DNA of 64,000 bases. Source: a bacterium HR15. GTDB taxonomy: Bacteria > Armatimonadota > Fimbriimonadia > Fimbriimonadales > GBS-DC. Shown piece after piece: positions 53,717 through 63,299 of the stretch. Position 1 is the first letter of the stretch, and each line of letters opens with the position of its first letter. The stretch is taken from NCBI GenBank assembly GCA_002898555.1, contig BEHR01000005.1, positions 1 through 64,000 of the forward strand. Reading direction: 5' to 3'. A model generated the notes under the pieces. That model saw nothing but the letters and a program-made list of their open reading frames with translations. It made no database searches and was not told where the DNA came from. A program made the translations under genes and the position numbers.

Positions 53717-54460
53717 TTATGGATTGTTTTCCTTCATCGGGTCGTACCAGTCGCGTAGGGGTGGATTGCCAGGGATCTGTCGCCATGTGTCGCTAAACAC
53801 ATGCCATTTAGCATGCCCATCCACAAACACATAGTTCGCCCCACCGTTATGCCGTCGAATGGCTAAGGTGGTCGGCTCGCTTCGCGTGGCGTCCCACATC
53901 ATCATGTTCATCTGATTATCCGCCACGCGCGGCGGCGTGCCCCAATACATCGGCATAAAGTGGTCCCCCTCAATCAGCATGCCGGTTCGGCTATTGCGCT
54001 CCGCCAACTCGGCTACATAGATGCATTGGGCAGGGCTAACCACCGCTGCCAATGGGAAGGGGCGCGGGTTCATGGGATTACCATACGGTGGATGGAACGG
54101 GTCCAAGTAGGCGTTGAAGCCATAAGAAGTGGGGCGCGGTGGATCCTCGTTCCATGCCGGACTATTATCCGATGGGCAGCGATGCAACAACTTAGTGCGC
54201 ACATAGGGCTGAACCTGGTCGATCCAGGATGTGGGTATGTTAGACCCTGGATGGTGCATACGCACACTGGGCATCAGCTCGTCCCAGTCTTGAATGTACA
54301 TTGCCACCGCCAGCCCTATCTGGCGACAGTTGGACAGGCATTGCGTTTGGCGTGCCTTCTCGCGTGCCTGCGTAAAAACGGGAAAGAGGATCGCCGCCAG
54401 TATCGCAATAATCGCGATCACGACCAGCAACTCTATCAATGTGAACCCTTTGCCTCGCAT
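53717..54460 (-). CDS. DUF1559 prepilin-like protein
   Basis: A 247-residue prepilin-like protein of the same family as the one at 14831. The leader is MRGKG, followed by [19 protein letters not shown] and [13 protein letters not shown]. The C-terminal domain contains the H-x-DG element ([12 protein letters not shown]) near the end. GGAGGAA lies 6 bases before ATG 54460, and the upstream in-frame extension is rejected for lack of a leader. Transcription ends at the hairpin at 53622. It is solitary, with no pilus assembly genes. Confidence 0.93.
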
Positions 54461-54592
54461 GATGTTCCTCCTCTGTCTGAAGTGTTGCCTCCGATGATTG
54501 GACGCCGACGACGGCGCCCACATACAGCGCTACGCTATGCGAACGGCTTCCGAAGCCGCCCGATATGAGATTTTTTTCAAGGTAAAAGTTGC

Positions 54593-57328: not shown

Positions 57329-58933
57329 ATGCGCTGGCTTCCTGTACCGCATGAGGTAACGACAACCGGCGAACGGCTCCCGTTTGCCGGTTGTCATTCA
57401 GTAAAGTATCCGCCTGGCTGGGAGGCGTCTGTGCGACCCCTGGTCGCGCTGGGCGAGGCATACGGTGGCTGGACGGCATTCATAGACCATGCGCCTGATC
57501 TGCCCGATCAAGGCTACCGGCTGCAGGTGGAGAATGCCCGCATTCGCATCGCGGCAGGCTCGCCGCGTGCCGCCTTCTACGCATGCCAGACGCTGCTGCA
57601 AGCATGGGATGGGAAATCGCTACCCCTGATGCAGGTCACCGATCAGCCCGATTTGGCATGGCGCGGTATCGTGGAGGGGTTCTATGGCGTGCCATGGAAA
57701 CATAGCGCGCGCCTGCGAATGATGGAGTTTATGGGACAAGTGAAGATGAATATCTATCTCTATGCGCCCAAGGATGACCCCTTCCATCGCGAACATTGGC
57801 GCGAACCCTATCCCCCAGAGGAAGCGGAACGACTTCAGGAGCTGATCAACGCTGCACACGAGAACTTTATTGAGTTTGTGTTCTGCATCAGCCCAGGGCT
57901 GTCGATGGTCTACTCCGACCCGGCAGAATTCGATCGACTGACCGACAAGGTGGACGCGGTGCGCCGGATGGGCGTGCGCAGCTTTGGACTCCTGCTGGAC
58001 GATATCCCAGAGCAGCTGGTTCACCCCGCCGATAAACACACCTACCACTCGTTAGCCCAGGCGCACGCTGACCTTGCCAATCGGCTCCATCGCTGGCTAA
58101 AAGAGCGCAACGAGCAGGCGTGGCTGATTGTATGCCCCACTTTCTATCACAATCTGGGCGAGCCACCCTATATAGGCGAACTGGGTGAACTTACAGAACC
58201 AGGTATCTCCATTATGTGGACGGGCAAGAAGGTTGTCTCGCGCGAAATCACCGCAGAGGAAGCAGAACTGTTCAGCCTCGCTATCCGACGCAAGCCCTTT
58301 GTGTGGGATAACTACCCTGTGAATGACTATGAACCGAGCCGCCTGTTGATGGGACCCATCACCGGGCGAGACCACGCGACCCTACAGTACCTGGAAGCGC
58401 TTGTCTCTAACCCAATGAATCAGGCGGAAGCATCGCGCGTAGCACTGGGCACCTATGCCGACCTGCTCTGGAACGCTGATGCCTATGACCCCCAGCGTAG
58501 TTGGAAAGCATCTGTGGCTCATTTGGTAGGCGAGGAGGCAGCACCCGTCATGCTGGAGTTTTGCCAAGAGAATCTCTGGTCACGCCACTGGAAAGCAGAG
58601 CCGCCCGCTTTCGTGAAAGCGCTCGAAGAATGGCAAATGAGCGGTGATGTAGAACCGCTGCGCACCGAACTGGAACGACTGAATAGCCTACCCATACGCC
58701 TACGCCAGGCGGTGAAAAATGAAGGATTAATCGAAGAGATTGAACCCTGGCTGGAACGGATGGAACAAATTACCGCGGTCGGACTACAACTGGTTGACCA
58801 GCTCGAGGAAGAGAACGAGGTGGAATATGCCCTGATTCGGGCTGAGCTGGATGCTGTACGCGCAAACGAAGCGATTGTGTGCGATGGCTGGATCGAACGC
58901 TGGATCCGAGAAGTGCTGGAGGAGGCAGAATAA
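57329..58933 (+). CDS. GH84 family beta-N-acetylglucosaminidase
   Basis: A 534-residue glycoside hydrolase of family 84, the bacterial O-GlcNAcase or hyaluronidase-like class. The N-terminal beta/alpha domain precedes the catalytic barrel from about residue 108 (LAWRGIVEGFYGVPWKH, MNIYLYAPKDDPFHR). The substrate-assisted catalytic pair is D225-D226 in FGLLLDDIPEQL. The VWDNYPVNDYEPSR segment is also conserved. The C-terminal part is helical. No signal peptide, so a cytoplasmic enzyme acting on GlcNAc-containing oligosaccharides is suggested. Followed by the DnaA-box region. Confidence 0.92.
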   Translation: MRWLPVPHEVTTTGERLPFAGCHSVKYPPGWEASVRPLVALGEAYGGWTAFIDHAPDLPDQGYRLQVENARIRIAAGSPRAAFYACQTLLQAWDGKSLPLMQVTDQPDLAWRGIVEGFYGVPWKHSARLRMMEFMGQVKMNIYLYAPKDDPFHREHWREPYPPEEAERLQELINAAHENFIEFVFCISPGLSMVYSDPAEFDRLTDKVDAVRRMGVRSFGLLLDDIPEQLVHPADKHTYHSLAQAHADLANRLHRWLKERNEQAWLIVCPTFYHNLGEPPYIGELGELTEPGISIMWTGKKVVSREITAEEAELFSLAIRRKPFVWDNYPVNDYEPSRLLMGPITGRDHATLQYLEALVSNPMNQAEASRVALGTYADLLWNADAYDPQRSWKASVAHLVGEEAAPVMLEFCQENLWSRHWKAEPPAFVKALEEWQMSGDVEPLRTELERLNSLPIRLRQAVKNEGLIEEIEPWLERMEQITAVGLQLVDQLEEENEVEYALIRAELDAVRANEAIVCDGWIERWIREVLEEAE

Positions 58934-58952
58934 TTTGCTCGCCAGCAAGGAG

Positions 58953-59258
58953 TTATCCACAGAGTTATCCACAGAGTTATCCACAAAGCCCTCTAAAGAG
59001 GGTTCTCCACAGAAGTTATCCACAAGTTATCCACAAGTTATCCACAGAGTTATCCACATTCTTTAGCCACGCTAAATAACCGCCTGTTCGAAAATAGTCC
59101 AAGCGATTCTGAGTTCAAAATGCCCCTATAAACCTTACTTTGTCTTTCGAACAACGAGTTAGTGCCCTCGAGTTATCCACAATATCCACACCCCCTATTA
59201 ATTAAAGGGGCCCTTAAAGGCATGTATAAGGGAATAAAACCTCCTTGCATGTGGATAA
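58953..59258. other. Candidate chromosomal replication origin (DnaA-box cluster)
   Basis: Eight perfect TTATCCACA boxes in one orientation at 58953, 58965, 58977, 59016, 59027, 59038, 59050 and 59173, one inverted box (TGTGGATAA) at 59250, and single-mismatch boxes at 59003 (TTCTCCACA) and 59182 (ATATCCACA). Several are spaced 11-12 bases apart, allowing cooperative DnaA binding on one helical face. An AT-rich stretch with CCCCTATTAATTAAAGGGG (59191-59210) and TTAAAGGCATGTATAAGG follows and could be the unwinding element. It lies directly upstream of recF, a common origin neighbour. The region is non-coding. dnaA and dnaN are not in the window. Confidence 0.88.
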
Positions 59259-59331
59259 CTCACTGGAAGCCGTGCTGACTGACCCAAAAAGCAGGAAAGC
59301 AAATAGAACAGGTGAATCTGGTAGTAGACGG

Positions 59332-60465
59332 ATGCGGGTTAAACGGCTGCGTTTAAGAAACTTTCGCAACTATGCACAGGCGGAGATTGAACCATGTGCA
59401 GGATTGAATGTGCTGGTTGGAGCGAATGCTCAGGGCAAAACAAATCTGTTGGAAGCCCTTTATTATGCCAGCACCTTTCGTTCGCTGCGCCCTGTGCGTG
59501 AAAGCGATTTCGTGCGATGGGGTGAACAGGAAGCGATGATTCATCTCTGTTTTCTTCGGCAGGGCATCGAGGAGGAGTTGCTCGTCAAGATTCCTCTGAA
59601 TGGCAAGCGGATGGTATGGCTGAACGAGCAACCTGTGTCGCGTCAAAGTGAGCTTATTGGACGGTTAAAAGTGGTTTGTTTTACCGCACAAGATTTGCTG
59701 CTTGTTCGGGGTGAACCAGCGGAACGGCGTCGCTTTCTGGATAGCGAACTGAGCCTCATAAGTCCGCGCTATCTCTACTCCGCCGCGCAGTATCGCCGTT
59801 GCTTAGAACAGCGCAACAACCTGCTGCGTGCCCATTTAGAGGGACATGCTGGTTTGGAAAGTCTGCCGGAATGGGACGGGCAACTGGTCAAATATGGCGC
59901 GCGACTGTTCGCTGAGCGTCGCCGCTTTCTGGAACAGCTACAAATGTGTGCTACCGAGGTGCACAGGGCACTGACAGGTGGCAAGGAAGCCTTTCAACTT
60001 CTTTATCAGCCGGGCTTGCTACATAGGAGCCAGCTGCCTGATAAAGAAGAAGATTGGGCAAGTGCGTTTCAAGCGTCGCTGCGCGAGGTCGAATCGGAGG
60101 AGATTCGTCGGGGTATGACCCTTGTGGGACCTCATCGAGATGATTTTCTCATTCTTATCGATGGGCACGAAGCGCGCCTATTCGCCTCCCAAGGGCAGCA
60201 GCGTACATGCGCCCTCAGCTTGCGTCTGGCAGAAGTGCCCCTCATCGAGAAGCGCATCGAGGAAAGCCCTGTGGTGCTGATGGATGATGTGTTTTCTGAC
60301 CTGGACCCTGAACGGCGCATGCGATTGATGCGATTTTTGCAGCCGCGCACACAAACCTTTCTCACTTGTACCAGTCTGTCCGACTTAGCCGACCTGTCCG
60401 ACTCGTCGGAAGCAGCAGCCATCTACCACATTCAAAAGGGGCAGGTGTTCCATGCAACCCATTGA
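59332..60465 (+). CDS. recF: DNA replication and repair protein RecF
   Basis: A 377-residue SMC-like ATPase that helps load RecA at gapped DNA. Walker A is GANAQGKTN (residues 30-38), the signature motif is the SQGQQRT segment, and Walker B is VVLMDDVFSDLD. The start ATG 59332 matches the family N-terminus (MRVKRLRLRNFRNY); the longer frame upstream passes through the DnaA-box region and is rejected. No clear ribosome site. It overlaps the downstream DUF721 gene by 14 bases, so the two are coupled. An inverted DnaA box lies about 75 bases upstream and could affect transcription. Confidence 0.95.
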   Translation: MRVKRLRLRNFRNYAQAEIEPCAGLNVLVGANAQGKTNLLEALYYASTFRSLRPVRESDFVRWGEQEAMIHLCFLRQGIEEELLVKIPLNGKRMVWLNEQPVSRQSELIGRLKVVCFTAQDLLLVRGEPAERRRFLDSELSLISPRYLYSAAQYRRCLEQRNNLLRAHLEGHAGLESLPEWDGQLVKYGARLFAERRRFLEQLQMCATEVHRALTGGKEAFQLLYQPGLLHRSQLPDKEEDWASAFQASLREVESEEIRRGMTLVGPHRDDFLILIDGHEARLFASQGQQRTCALSLRLAEVPLIEKRIEESPVVLMDDVFSDLDPERRMRLMRFLQPRTQTFLTCTSLSDLADLSDSSEAAAIYHIQKGQVFHATH

Positions 60466-61030
60466 GCCGGCAGGGCGATGGCTTTGGGAGGTATTGCGGC
60501 AGCTCGGCATCGAGCGTGAGTTCCGCGCTCATCGCGCCCTAAGCGCATGGGAGACCATTGTGGGTGAATCCATCGCGCGTGTGGCACAGCCATTGCGCAT
60601 AGAAGGTGGAACCCTCTGGGTGGCGGTCAAAAGCAACGCCTGGGCGCAGGAACTGCAATTTCAGAAAGCAATCTTGCTACAACGGCTCAATGAGAAAGCG
60701 GGCAACGACTGTTTTAAAGAAATTCGGTTTGTGGTGCGGTCCCAATTGCGGCATCCATCTTCTGGATCTCCTTCCCAGAGAGAGCATAGGTTTCTCCCGC
60801 AGGATTTGGAGCTCACTTCAGAGGAGCGCGAAGCACTGCAGCAGAGTGTGGCGACCATTGAGGAGCCTGCATTGCGGGAGGCCATCTATCGTGCGCGAGA
60901 GGCATCGCTGCGCTACGAGAAGTGGCGCATCCAAAGCGGTTGGCGTCGATGCGAGCAATGTGGCGAGTGGCATGCCGAATCATCCAGGCGCTGCTTCCTG
61001 TGTCGCGAGCAGGGGCGCGCAGGCAGGTAG
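60452..61030 (+). CDS. dciA: DciA-like helicase loader (DUF721) with zinc-ribbon tail
   Basis: A 192-residue protein. The N-terminal about 95 residues are the DUF721/DciA domain (LGIEREFRAHRALSAWETIVGE, RIEGGTLWVAVKSNAWAQEL). DciA is the ancestral loader of the replicative helicase DnaB. The rest is longer than the usual family and ends in a likely zinc ribbon (CEQCGEWHAESSRRCFLC, two CxxC pairs about residues 172-188). It overlaps recF by 14 bases and lies beside the candidate origin, which fits a role in initiation. Confidence 0.87.
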   Translation: MQPIEPAGRWLWEVLRQLGIEREFRAHRALSAWETIVGESIARVAQPLRIEGGTLWVAVKSNAWAQELQFQKAILLQRLNEKAGNDCFKEIRFVVRSQLRHPSSGSPSQREHRFLPQDLELTSEEREALQQSVATIEEPALREAIYRAREASLRYEKWRIQSGWRRCEQCGEWHAESSRRCFLCREQGRAGR

Positions 61031-61047
61031 ATTCGCTGGCGACGGTA

Positions 61048-62514
61048 GTGCGCCCGCGTGTGGGACTGCAGGTGGCACTGGGGCTTTCCGTTGGCATTGC
61101 CTCTGTAGAGTGGCTTCCCCATGCATCGAATCTAACGGAATGGGCTTATGTTTTTGCAGCTCTCTTGCTCATTCTTGTGCGCCCACGCTGGACACTCATT
61201 GTGCTTGCTGCTTTGCTTGGAAGCTGGCGCTACGCGGCTTGGAATGAAGTGAAGCCTGTGAATCCCGCTTATTTGCCTTCTGGAGCGCATTTACGGGCGA
61301 TTGGGTCTTGGGAGCCGACTCGCACAGGGGGCAGGCTGCTGTGCGCCTTTATGGGCGAAAGAGACGCCTTTTCGAAAGGGTACGCGCTCCTCTATTTTCG
61401 CCAGACGGTGGTGCATCCACCCGACTACGGAGACGAGTTCATTCTGCGGGTAAGTTGGCAGCGACCACAGAATCCACCCGGCATCTCCTTCGACTGGGTG
61501 CGCTACCTGCAGCGCAGGCGCGTTTATTATATTGCTGTCGTTTATCACGATTCCCAGTTTCAGATGGTGCGCTCTCAAGAGACGAGCTGGCAGCGATGGT
61601 TTCAGGGTCTTCGGCGCTCGTTGCATCGGCTATTCTATGCTCGCCTTACCCAGGAGGACGCTGCTGTCATGGAAGGGATCATGGTCGGTGCAACGGGCGA
61701 CTTTCCGCGCTCGCTGCGTGAAGCCTTCATGCGCAGCGGCATCGGGCACATGCTGTCTACCTCTGGATTGCATGTGGCGATGGCACTACAATTGCTCGAG
61801 CTATTGTTGACGCGGTTGGTGGTGCCTTTTCGGTGGCGTATGGGGTTGCTCATTCTTGCGGCGTGGGGCTATGCGTTGCTGGCAGGGCTGCGCCCTCCGA
61901 TTGCACGGGCAGCGACGATGGCGAGCCTTTATCTTGCCGCGCCCCTGCTCAAGCGCGAAGCGGACGGCTTGAACGCGCTCGGCTGGGCTGCTGCCATTTG
62001 GCTGCTCTATGCCCCCTACTCGCTCTTTGAGGTGGGGTTTCAATACTCATTTTGCGCGGTGCTGTTCATCCTGCTGTTTTACCGGCGTGTGGAGCGGGCG
62101 CTGCGGGAGGGCTGGGCGATTTTTGTTCGGCAGGGATGGCTGCGTGCGTCGGGTGAACGGTGGCTCTGTCCGCTGCTCAGCGTCTCACTCTGCGCACAGG
62201 CTGGCATCGGCTTGATCCAACTTTATCACTTCGGTTATTTATCGCTGCTATCGCCACTGGCGAATCTGCTCGCTGCGCCCGCTGCTTACTTGGCACTTGC
62301 GCTGGGCAGCTTTTTCTGGCTCTCTCATGGGGTGGGTGTGCTACCTATCGAGGTGATTTGTGCATGGTTGAAATGGGTTGCGCTGACCTTTGGAGCCGCG
62401 TGGGTTCCTGCCGTTTCGTTCCACTCGCTGCCGTGGTGGCTGGTGCTGGGGTTTTACGGAGTGGTGCTTCTTTTTGCCCCCGAACCGACTGTCGAGGAGC
62501 CAGAGATATGGTAA
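61048..62514 (+). CDS. comEC: ComEC/Rec2-type DNA uptake channel, core domain only
   Basis: About 488 residues from GTG 61048, which begins VRPRVGLQVALGLSVGIA, the usual ComEC opening; the longer frame overlapping dciA is rejected. Family marks are the OB-like DUF4131 region (about 75-190), then the competence domain with ILVGATGDFPRSLREAFMRSGIGHMLSTSGLHVA and YALLAGLRPPIARAATMASLYLAA. About ten membrane helices. The C-terminal metallo-beta-lactamase nuclease domain of many ComECs is absent. Predicted to carry single-stranded DNA across the membrane during transformation. A terminator follows. Confidence 0.88.
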   Translation: MRPRVGLQVALGLSVGIASVEWLPHASNLTEWAYVFAALLLILVRPRWTLIVLAALLGSWRYAAWNEVKPVNPAYLPSGAHLRAIGSWEPTRTGGRLLCAFMGERDAFSKGYALLYFRQTVVHPPDYGDEFILRVSWQRPQNPPGISFDWVRYLQRRRVYYIAVVYHDSQFQMVRSQETSWQRWFQGLRRSLHRLFYARLTQEDAAVMEGIMVGATGDFPRSLREAFMRSGIGHMLSTSGLHVAMALQLLELLLTRLVVPFRWRMGLLILAAWGYALLAGLRPPIARAATMASLYLAAPLLKREADGLNALGWAAAIWLLYAPYSLFEVGFQYSFCAVLFILLFYRRVERALREGWAIFVRQGWLRASGERWLCPLLSVSLCAQAGIGLIQLYHFGYLSLLSPLANLLAAPAAYLALALGSFFWLSHGVGVLPIEVICAWLKWVALTFGAAWVPAVSFHSLPWWLVLGFYGVVLLFAPEPTVEEPEIW

Positions 62515-62612: not shown

Positions 62613-63299
62613 TTATTTGGCGCGGCGCCTTCGCAAAAGTAAGCCGCCCAGTCCGACGCCCAGTGCCAGCAAGCTGGCAGGCTCCGGCACCCAGTCCTGC
62701 TCCACCAGCAGCAGAGAAGCGGTAGACGGTCCAGGATAAGCGGCGCCGTCGATGTGCAGGAAGAAGGTCTCGATTACGAGAATGTTATCGGACGGTGTGG
62801 TCAGTGGGAAGAAACCGTTCTTCTGGAAAGTGCCATCGGCACCTCCCACATAGCCATCGCCGCTGAACACCCAAGTGCCCAGAAATAGCACCTGGTTCGT
62901 GTTCAGATCGACGACCTTCTTGCTCCAGAATATCTGACCGTAGTCCTGCACGAAGCCGCTTACGACGAAGTTGAACCCGGTTAGTGGCGCCTTGCTGGAG
63001 GTGATGGTGTAGGTGCCGGTGAAGGTGCCATTAGCAAAGAAGGTGCCGTCCCCTACGGTGATTGGGGGCGCGCTGGCTGCTGTCAAGAAGGTGATTTTAG
63101 GCAGCACATTGACGGTCCACGTAGCAGGCGCACCTGAGAAGAAGTGCCCGTCGATGGTAAACGGCACATTCACGCTGACATTCCCAGGGTTCAAGTGCCC
63201 TTGGCTGACCGTGACATTCACCGTCCAACCGGACGCTAACGCATGGGCAGCGACCGCCACATACAGAGCGGTACCGAATAGTTTGAGTCTCCTCATCAT
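62613..63299 (-). CDS. PEP-CTERM sorting-signal protein
   Basis: A 228-residue exported protein. Signal peptide MMRRLKLFGTALYVAVAAHALA. The C-terminus is the PEP-CTERM signal: VPEPAS, a hydrophobic helix (LLALGVGLGGLLL) and RRRRAK, which is recognised by an exosortase. The body is beta-rich (SGWTVNVTVSQG, GNVSVNVPFTIDGHFF, GTFTGTYTITSSK) and has no family I know. AGGAGGTG precedes the ATG at 63299. The motif ACCCGAAAGAGGTCA lies upstream at 63325-63339. Associated exosortase genes are not in the window. Confidence 0.88.
   Translation of the reverse strand: MMRRLKLFGTALYVAVAAHALASGWTVNVTVSQGHLNPGNVSVNVPFTIDGHFFSGAPATWTVNVLPKITFLTAASAPPITVGDGTFFANGTFTGTYTITSSKAPLTGFNFVVSGFVQDYGQIFWSKKVVDLNTNQVLFLGTWVFSGDGYVGGADGTFQKNGFFPLTTPSDNILVIETFFLHIDGAAYPGPSTASLLLVEQDWVPEPASLLALGVGLGGLLLRRRRAK

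Follow-up and report, generated by a model that had tools for sequence, protein, structure and literature searches.

A DnaA-box array upstream of recF as the probable chromosomal replication origin of an uncultured Fimbriimonadales bacterium

Can a dense array of DnaA boxes that lies just upstream of recF, at a locus that carries neither dnaA nor dnaN, be the chromosomal origin of replication? The array was found in a 64-kb stretch of DNA (the window) from a draft genome (G000; 3.04 Mb, 72 contigs, 98.3% complete) of an uncultured Fimbriimonadales bacterium belonging to the Armatimonadota, for which no experimentally mapped origin was found in the literature searched. We propose from the sequence comparisons described here that the array is very probably the oriC of G000, and that this oriC would occupy an unusual but lineage-typical place. 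The relatives compared were 17 genomes of the same family, 28 genomes of the order that were examined for recF-dciA and outgroup genomes from elsewhere in the Armatimonadota. By RecF, the closest named record in a contig scan is also an uncultured Fimbriimonadales bacterium (62% identical), and a DnaA-box cluster is absent from the contig of that relative.

The 398-bp gap between a gene for a GH84 beta-N-acetylglucosaminidase (57329..58933, + strand), which lies outside the putative origin, and recF contains nine perfect DnaA boxes and two near-boxes, with the array starting 19 bp after the end of the GH84 gene. Exact matches bear out the original prediction of eight perfect forward boxes, mostly 11-12 bp apart, plus one inverted box, all of which lie within 58953-59258 (306 bp). 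Forward copies of TTATCCACA start at 58953, 58965, 58977, 59016, 59027, 59038, 59050 and 59173, and the copy on the - strand occupies 59250-59258; boxes with one mismatch are present at 59003 (TTCTCCACA) and 59182 (ATATCCACA). Successive forward boxes are spaced by 12, 12, 39, 11, 11, 12 and 123 bp, followed by 77 bp to the inverted box. The array thereby consists of a first tract of three perfect boxes with a 12-bp period (58953..58985, + strand), a second tract comprising near-box TTCTCCACA and four perfect boxes with an 11-13-bp period (59003..59058, + strand), a pair formed by a perfect box and ATATCCACA (59173..59190, + strand), and the single inverted perfect box (59250..59258, - strand). 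Between the second tract and the pair are two conserved elements to which no strand is assigned, TTTAGCCACGCTAAATAA (59062..59079) and ATTCTGAGTTCAAAAT (59106..59121). The window holds 17 matches with at most one mismatch versus 8.05 expected in shuffles (largest shuffle, 15), and 11 of the 17 fall in the array. Of the 34 exact boxes in the whole of G000, nine lie within these 306 bp, and the 3.04-Mb draft contains no second box cluster; given this box background, the genome-wide chance of such a cluster is ~1e-23. The array is intergenic, and high-affinity DnaA boxes are clustered in it far more densely than by chance, as is expected of an oriC.

The AT-rich unwinding element that had been predicted for this region stands only in part. 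The AT content is modest (55-62% in 40-bp windows), but a DnaA-trio-like tract (CTA TTA ATT; 59195..59203, + strand; definition in PMC8287927) begins 13 bp after the primary box at 59173 and is the proposed start of unwinding. The search rule for a basal unwinding system (BUS; PMC8287927) asks for a box within the allowed mismatch, a spacer of at most 16 and at least three trios with the central A on the proper strand, and the window copy has a box with 0 mismatches, a spacer of 13 and three trios. A three-trio run arises in ~11% of shuffles, which counts against the oriC reading; since three trios alone could be due to chance, it is the conservation of the trios in the family that supports a BUS in the window. 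At least three trios are present in 10 of 13 family arrays, and the array of one relative (G014) lacks the tract, which again counts against this reading. DNA folding of the unwinding region was no better than that of shuffles, and a promoter and terminator scan of 58800-59500 found nothing. The region resembles the BUS of the Bacillus subtilis oriC (PMC8287927, PMC6669920) in its box pair, in the 13-bp spacer from the primary box and in the CTA/TTA-type trios of most family arrays. It differs from the B. subtilis BUS in that the window copy has three trios, carries in addition a dense cluster of forward boxes and a distal box in inverted orientation, and is without adjacent dnaA or dnaN. As a separate observation, the trio tract in the window is located inside an inverted repeat (59192-59210, CCCCTATTAATTAAAGGGG) that is absent from aligned relatives.

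A homologous element of ~330 bp is present in at least 14 of the 17 same-family relatives, mostly beside other genes, and its layout is near-constant: ~125 bp separate a box cluster from a box pair that carries a DnaA-trio-like tract, and an inverted box follows ~70 bp further on. Pair patterns and alignment revealed this element in 13 genomes of the family, G000 among them; its parts are a box cluster, TTAGC-NNN-GCTAA, TTTGAGTTCAAAAT, a box plus half-box, a trio-like tract and an inverted box. The TTAGC-NNN-GCTAA inverted repeat, which in the window is part of TTTAGCCACGCTAAATAA, is perfect in 11 of the 13 arrays (alignment read by eye), and TTTGAGTTCAAAAT, the family consensus of ATTCTGAGTTCAAAAT, is a near-palindrome. 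All 13 aligned arrays have a box and half-box (TCCACA) at the position of the 59173..59190 pair, an inverted box at the place of 59250..59258, and a distance of 214-222 bp from the cluster end to the inverted box, while the flanks change; the second tract likewise has a homologous cluster in family relatives. A sequence model (R1) built on the 219-bp 3' part of the element gave one strong match per genome in G000 and in 14 of the 17 family relatives (E 4e-26 to 9e-51), in keeping with an oriC that is conserved as a single copy in related genomes; no strong R1 match was found in G002, G006 or G016, and the copy in G010 is interrupted by contig ends.

The neighbors of the element vary. In G000 the array precedes recF in the same orientation, while in G005 it lies 33 bp past the dnaA stop and in the orientation of dnaA, in G004 beside a histidine kinase gene and an M48 peptidase gene, and in G001, G008 and G011 beside a glycosyltransferase gene. 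One tentative interpretation, for which we would claim somewhat less than an even chance, is that the origin in this family is an intact ~330-bp module that changes its chromosomal address between genera and keeps its box spacing and two palindromes. Its addresses would then be the recF, dnaA, histidine kinase/M48 peptidase and glycosyltransferase neighborhoods, on chromosomes whose GC skew is nearly erased. On a 3-kb contig (C39:573-614), G008 also carries four further perfect DnaA boxes in a row, its full array being elsewhere (C89); this second run may be an origin fragment, contamination or a duplicate.

Linkage of box clusters to recF extends beyond the family. Box clusters precede recF in G002, of the same family, and in G018 and G020, which belong to other families, and degenerate versions of the module occur upstream of recF in several families. 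In three genomes of one genus (G057, G019 and G052) of a family that is very probably the Fimbriimonadaceae, the best R1 match is directly upstream of recF; these matches are individually weak (E 0.007-0.02), which counts against the oriC reading. In 19 of 33 genomes (G000 and G002 excluded) the 200 bp before recF contain the motif TTWTCCAC, whereas shuffles gave 0.2 (largest, 4) and control stretches further upstream gave 0; the box-plus-trio pattern was found 19 times against 0.1, and carries less weight because it was chosen after the sequences had been seen. GTTCAA/TTGAAC, part of the ATTCTGAGTTCAAAAT-type element, is enriched upstream of recF in other families as well. Boxes near recF in Fimbriimonadaceae are often degenerate (TTTTCCACC, TTTTCCCC), which suggests a drifted DnaA-box consensus in that family.

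In 16 outgroup genomes, dnaA and recF are at most about 5 kb apart on one strand, and no such arrangement was found in Fimbriimonadales. In a RecF tree the genomes with relocated arrays form one derived clade, around which the recF-linked G018, G020, G002 and G000 are placed; G005 lies apart. The recF linkage looks ancestral for the order and like a remnant of dnaA-oriC-dnaN-recF-dciA, and the simplest reading is that dnaA and dnaN left an ancestral cluster of this kind. Of the presumed ancestral order, the dnaA-oriC orientation is seen in G005 and the oriC-recF orientation in G000, and the dnaA linkage of G005 was either kept or regained. We consider it highly probable that 58953-59258 is the chromosomal oriC, an ancestral relic left upstream of recF when dnaA and dnaN departed from the cluster early in the history of Fimbriimonadales. 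G000 and G002 would have kept the recF linkage; in other genera of the family this element has different genes as neighbors.

GC skew was determined from sampled 20-kb stretches with a two-arm fit and a permutation p. In two complete Fimbriimonadaceae genomes, G036 and G058, the stretches were denser around recF, a caveat to the oriC reading; this makes the local estimate more precise and does not create a sign change. Between 140 and 720 kb the skew in G036 is negative, and between 750 kb and 2.27 Mb it is positive; the best-fit origin is 740 kb, compared with 744 kb for recF and 0.5 kb for dnaA (p <0.0025). For G058 the best-fit origin is 460 kb, compared with 459 kb for recF and 298 kb for dnaA (p 0.005). 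dnaA fits poorly as the origin in both genomes, and the skew of their sampled stretches changes sign at the syntenic locus, as is expected of relatives if the locus is oriC. The proposal that the array is an origin, made in the original prediction, is well supported by the family-wide conservation of the element and by the skew of G036 and G058, complete genomes of relatives, which switches at recF. Other skew results count against it. In G003, whose genome is complete and whose array has relocated (to 2.14 Mb, with dnaA at 1.25 Mb and recF at 0.81 Mb), the skew is weak and the best-fit origin, 2.80 Mb, is ~0.66 Mb from the array; the array has a p of 0.076, and dnaA and recF are rejected as the origin. 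Gene-oriented GC3 skew is also weak in G003, and GC skew is nearly erased. The contig of the window, in a draft genome, shows no sign change at the array (+0.025 on the left, +0.018 on the right). Frequent rearrangement may have erased the skew signal in the family of G000; jagged GC skew was reported for Fimbriimonas ginsengisoli (PMC4072686).

The locus does lack both dnaA and dnaN, as had been noted: its neighbors are the GH84 gene and recF, and neither of the genes that adjoin a dnaA-dnaN-recF-type origin region is beside it. dnaN of G000 is on another contig (C34), where the surrounding 20 kb contain no box cluster, and no dnaA was found in the assembly with PF00308 or a DnaA protein query. 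The missing dnaA leaves room for a second origin beside it, which counts against the oriC reading. One alternative is that the array is a DnaA-titration or regulatory site, either datA-like or serving DnaA control of recF-dciA transcription, and that the true origin lies beside the unassembled dnaA. Apart from the missing gene, the unflipped skew on the contig of the window and the position of the G005 array next to dnaA are in its favor. A stronger cluster beside dnaA at another locus, named beforehand as the result that would speak against an origin here, was not found in the G000 assembly, a finding qualified by the absence of dnaA from that same assembly. In the relatives that have both dnaA and an array, G005 excepted, no box cluster occurs in the sampled ~20 kb around dnaA, and each of these relatives has a single strong model match. 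These observations, the skew switch in the outgroup genomes G036 and G058, and a layout of box pair, trio tract and inverted box that is of the unwinding type rather than that of a bare titration array make a titration or regulatory site improbable.

Another alternative is that the G000 organism truly lost dnaA, so that the boxes would serve in another way or replication would begin independently of DnaA. The draft is 98.3% complete, and dnaA is present in 17 of 17 family relatives. On the other hand, the nine perfect boxes that were kept imply a working DnaA, and with 72 contigs a 1.4-kb gene can fall in a gap. The gene after dnaA in G001 and G004 encodes a glycosyltransferase, and its G000 orthologue is mid-contig beside lysS, which made it uninformative for placing dnaA; gene neighbors cannot decide between a gap and loss because gene order is too shuffled. 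An assembly gap is more likely than loss because the perfect boxes were kept, and there is little chance that loss of dnaA accounts for this locus. Elsewhere in the Armatimonadota, the four genomes of family f25 (G084, G097, G107 and G116) all lack a DnaA ATPase match and a RecF match, and two of them are 96% and 90% complete; the family is a candidate for family-level loss of both genes. At G081:C1:1352441-1352925, in a single-contig genome, and at G078:C30:34355-34895, DnaA is divided between two frames that overlap or adjoin, through a frameshift or sequencing error.

The origin of an integrated element, or a functionless repeat expansion, is a very remote explanation for the array: the neighbors of the element differ between genera, but there is one strong copy per genome with chromosomal genes on its flanks, its spacing and palindromes are conserved across genera, and versions upstream of recF exist in other families.

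What was observed is the array, its conserved homology and layout, the recF linkage in several families and the skew switch at recF in two complete relatives; if the array is oriC, a way in which it would bind DnaA, unwind and fire in the G000 organism can be proposed in addition. DnaA would bind the densely spaced forward boxes of the cluster and, at 59173-59190, the box pair, and would be guided onto the adjacent trio tract from 59195. By analogy with known origins, the DNA may then melt from the trio tract toward the inverted box at 59250, after which the DnaB helicase would be loaded with the assistance of DciA.

The locus shares the order and orientation of oriC, recF and dciA with the canonical dnaA-oriC-dnaN-recF-dciA-gyrB cluster (mycobacteria, PMC5720831; DciA survey, PMC5109545), from which it differs by being without dnaA and dnaN and by having comEC after dciA. 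Origins of the E. coli type (named in PMC8287927) are also apart from dnaA, but their neighbors differ, and the recF linkage described here is common to several families. F. ginsengisoli (PMC4072686) belongs to the same order and has scattered dnaA, dnaN, recF and gyrB genes; its origin was predicted from skew and a single box at 5.13 Mb, between dnaN and dnaA. The comparison of relatives made here differs in pointing to the region upstream of recF (1.93 Mb), and the published origin may need revision. The published one is the single origin prediction found for Armatimonadota in the literature searched, and it places the origin near dnaA; the recF reading would be a correction for the order. 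With recF as the indicator gene, origin positions open to testing could be predicted in many genomes of the order, and the shared element allows origin relocation to be followed across genera.

Profile matches confirm that the array is upstream of recF (59332..60465, + strand; ATG start; TIGR00611, 3.3e-102; SMC_N), that recF overlaps the DUF721/DciA gene dciA (60452..61030, + strand; PF05258, 1e-22) by 14 bp, and that a comEC core-domain gene (Competence; 60922..62514, + strand; PF03772, 3e-49) comes next. The DciA assignment scores 80.3 bits with PF05258, against a curated cut-off of 24. It had been suggested that a neighboring loader gene places initiation and helicase loading in one transcript. 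We rejected such coupling as unsupported: dciA comes after recF in each of the 28 genomes of the order, irrespective of an upstream array, and comEC comes next in nearly all of them, while most of the 28 have no perfect-box array before recF. Joint transcription of origin and loader as something special to the recF locus is not supported. Brezellec et al. (PMC5109545) found dciA in the replication operon, or beside recF or gyrB where the operon is scattered, in 15 of 23 phyla, and documented the recF-dciA linkage as an ancestral remnant of a dnaA-dnaN-recF-gyrB-gyrA operon. Elsewhere in the window, the - strand encodes a small protein with a PEP-CTERM-like tail (VPEPASLLALGVGLGGLLLRRRR; 62613-63299) and a protein with a type IV prepilin-like N-terminus (53717-54523).
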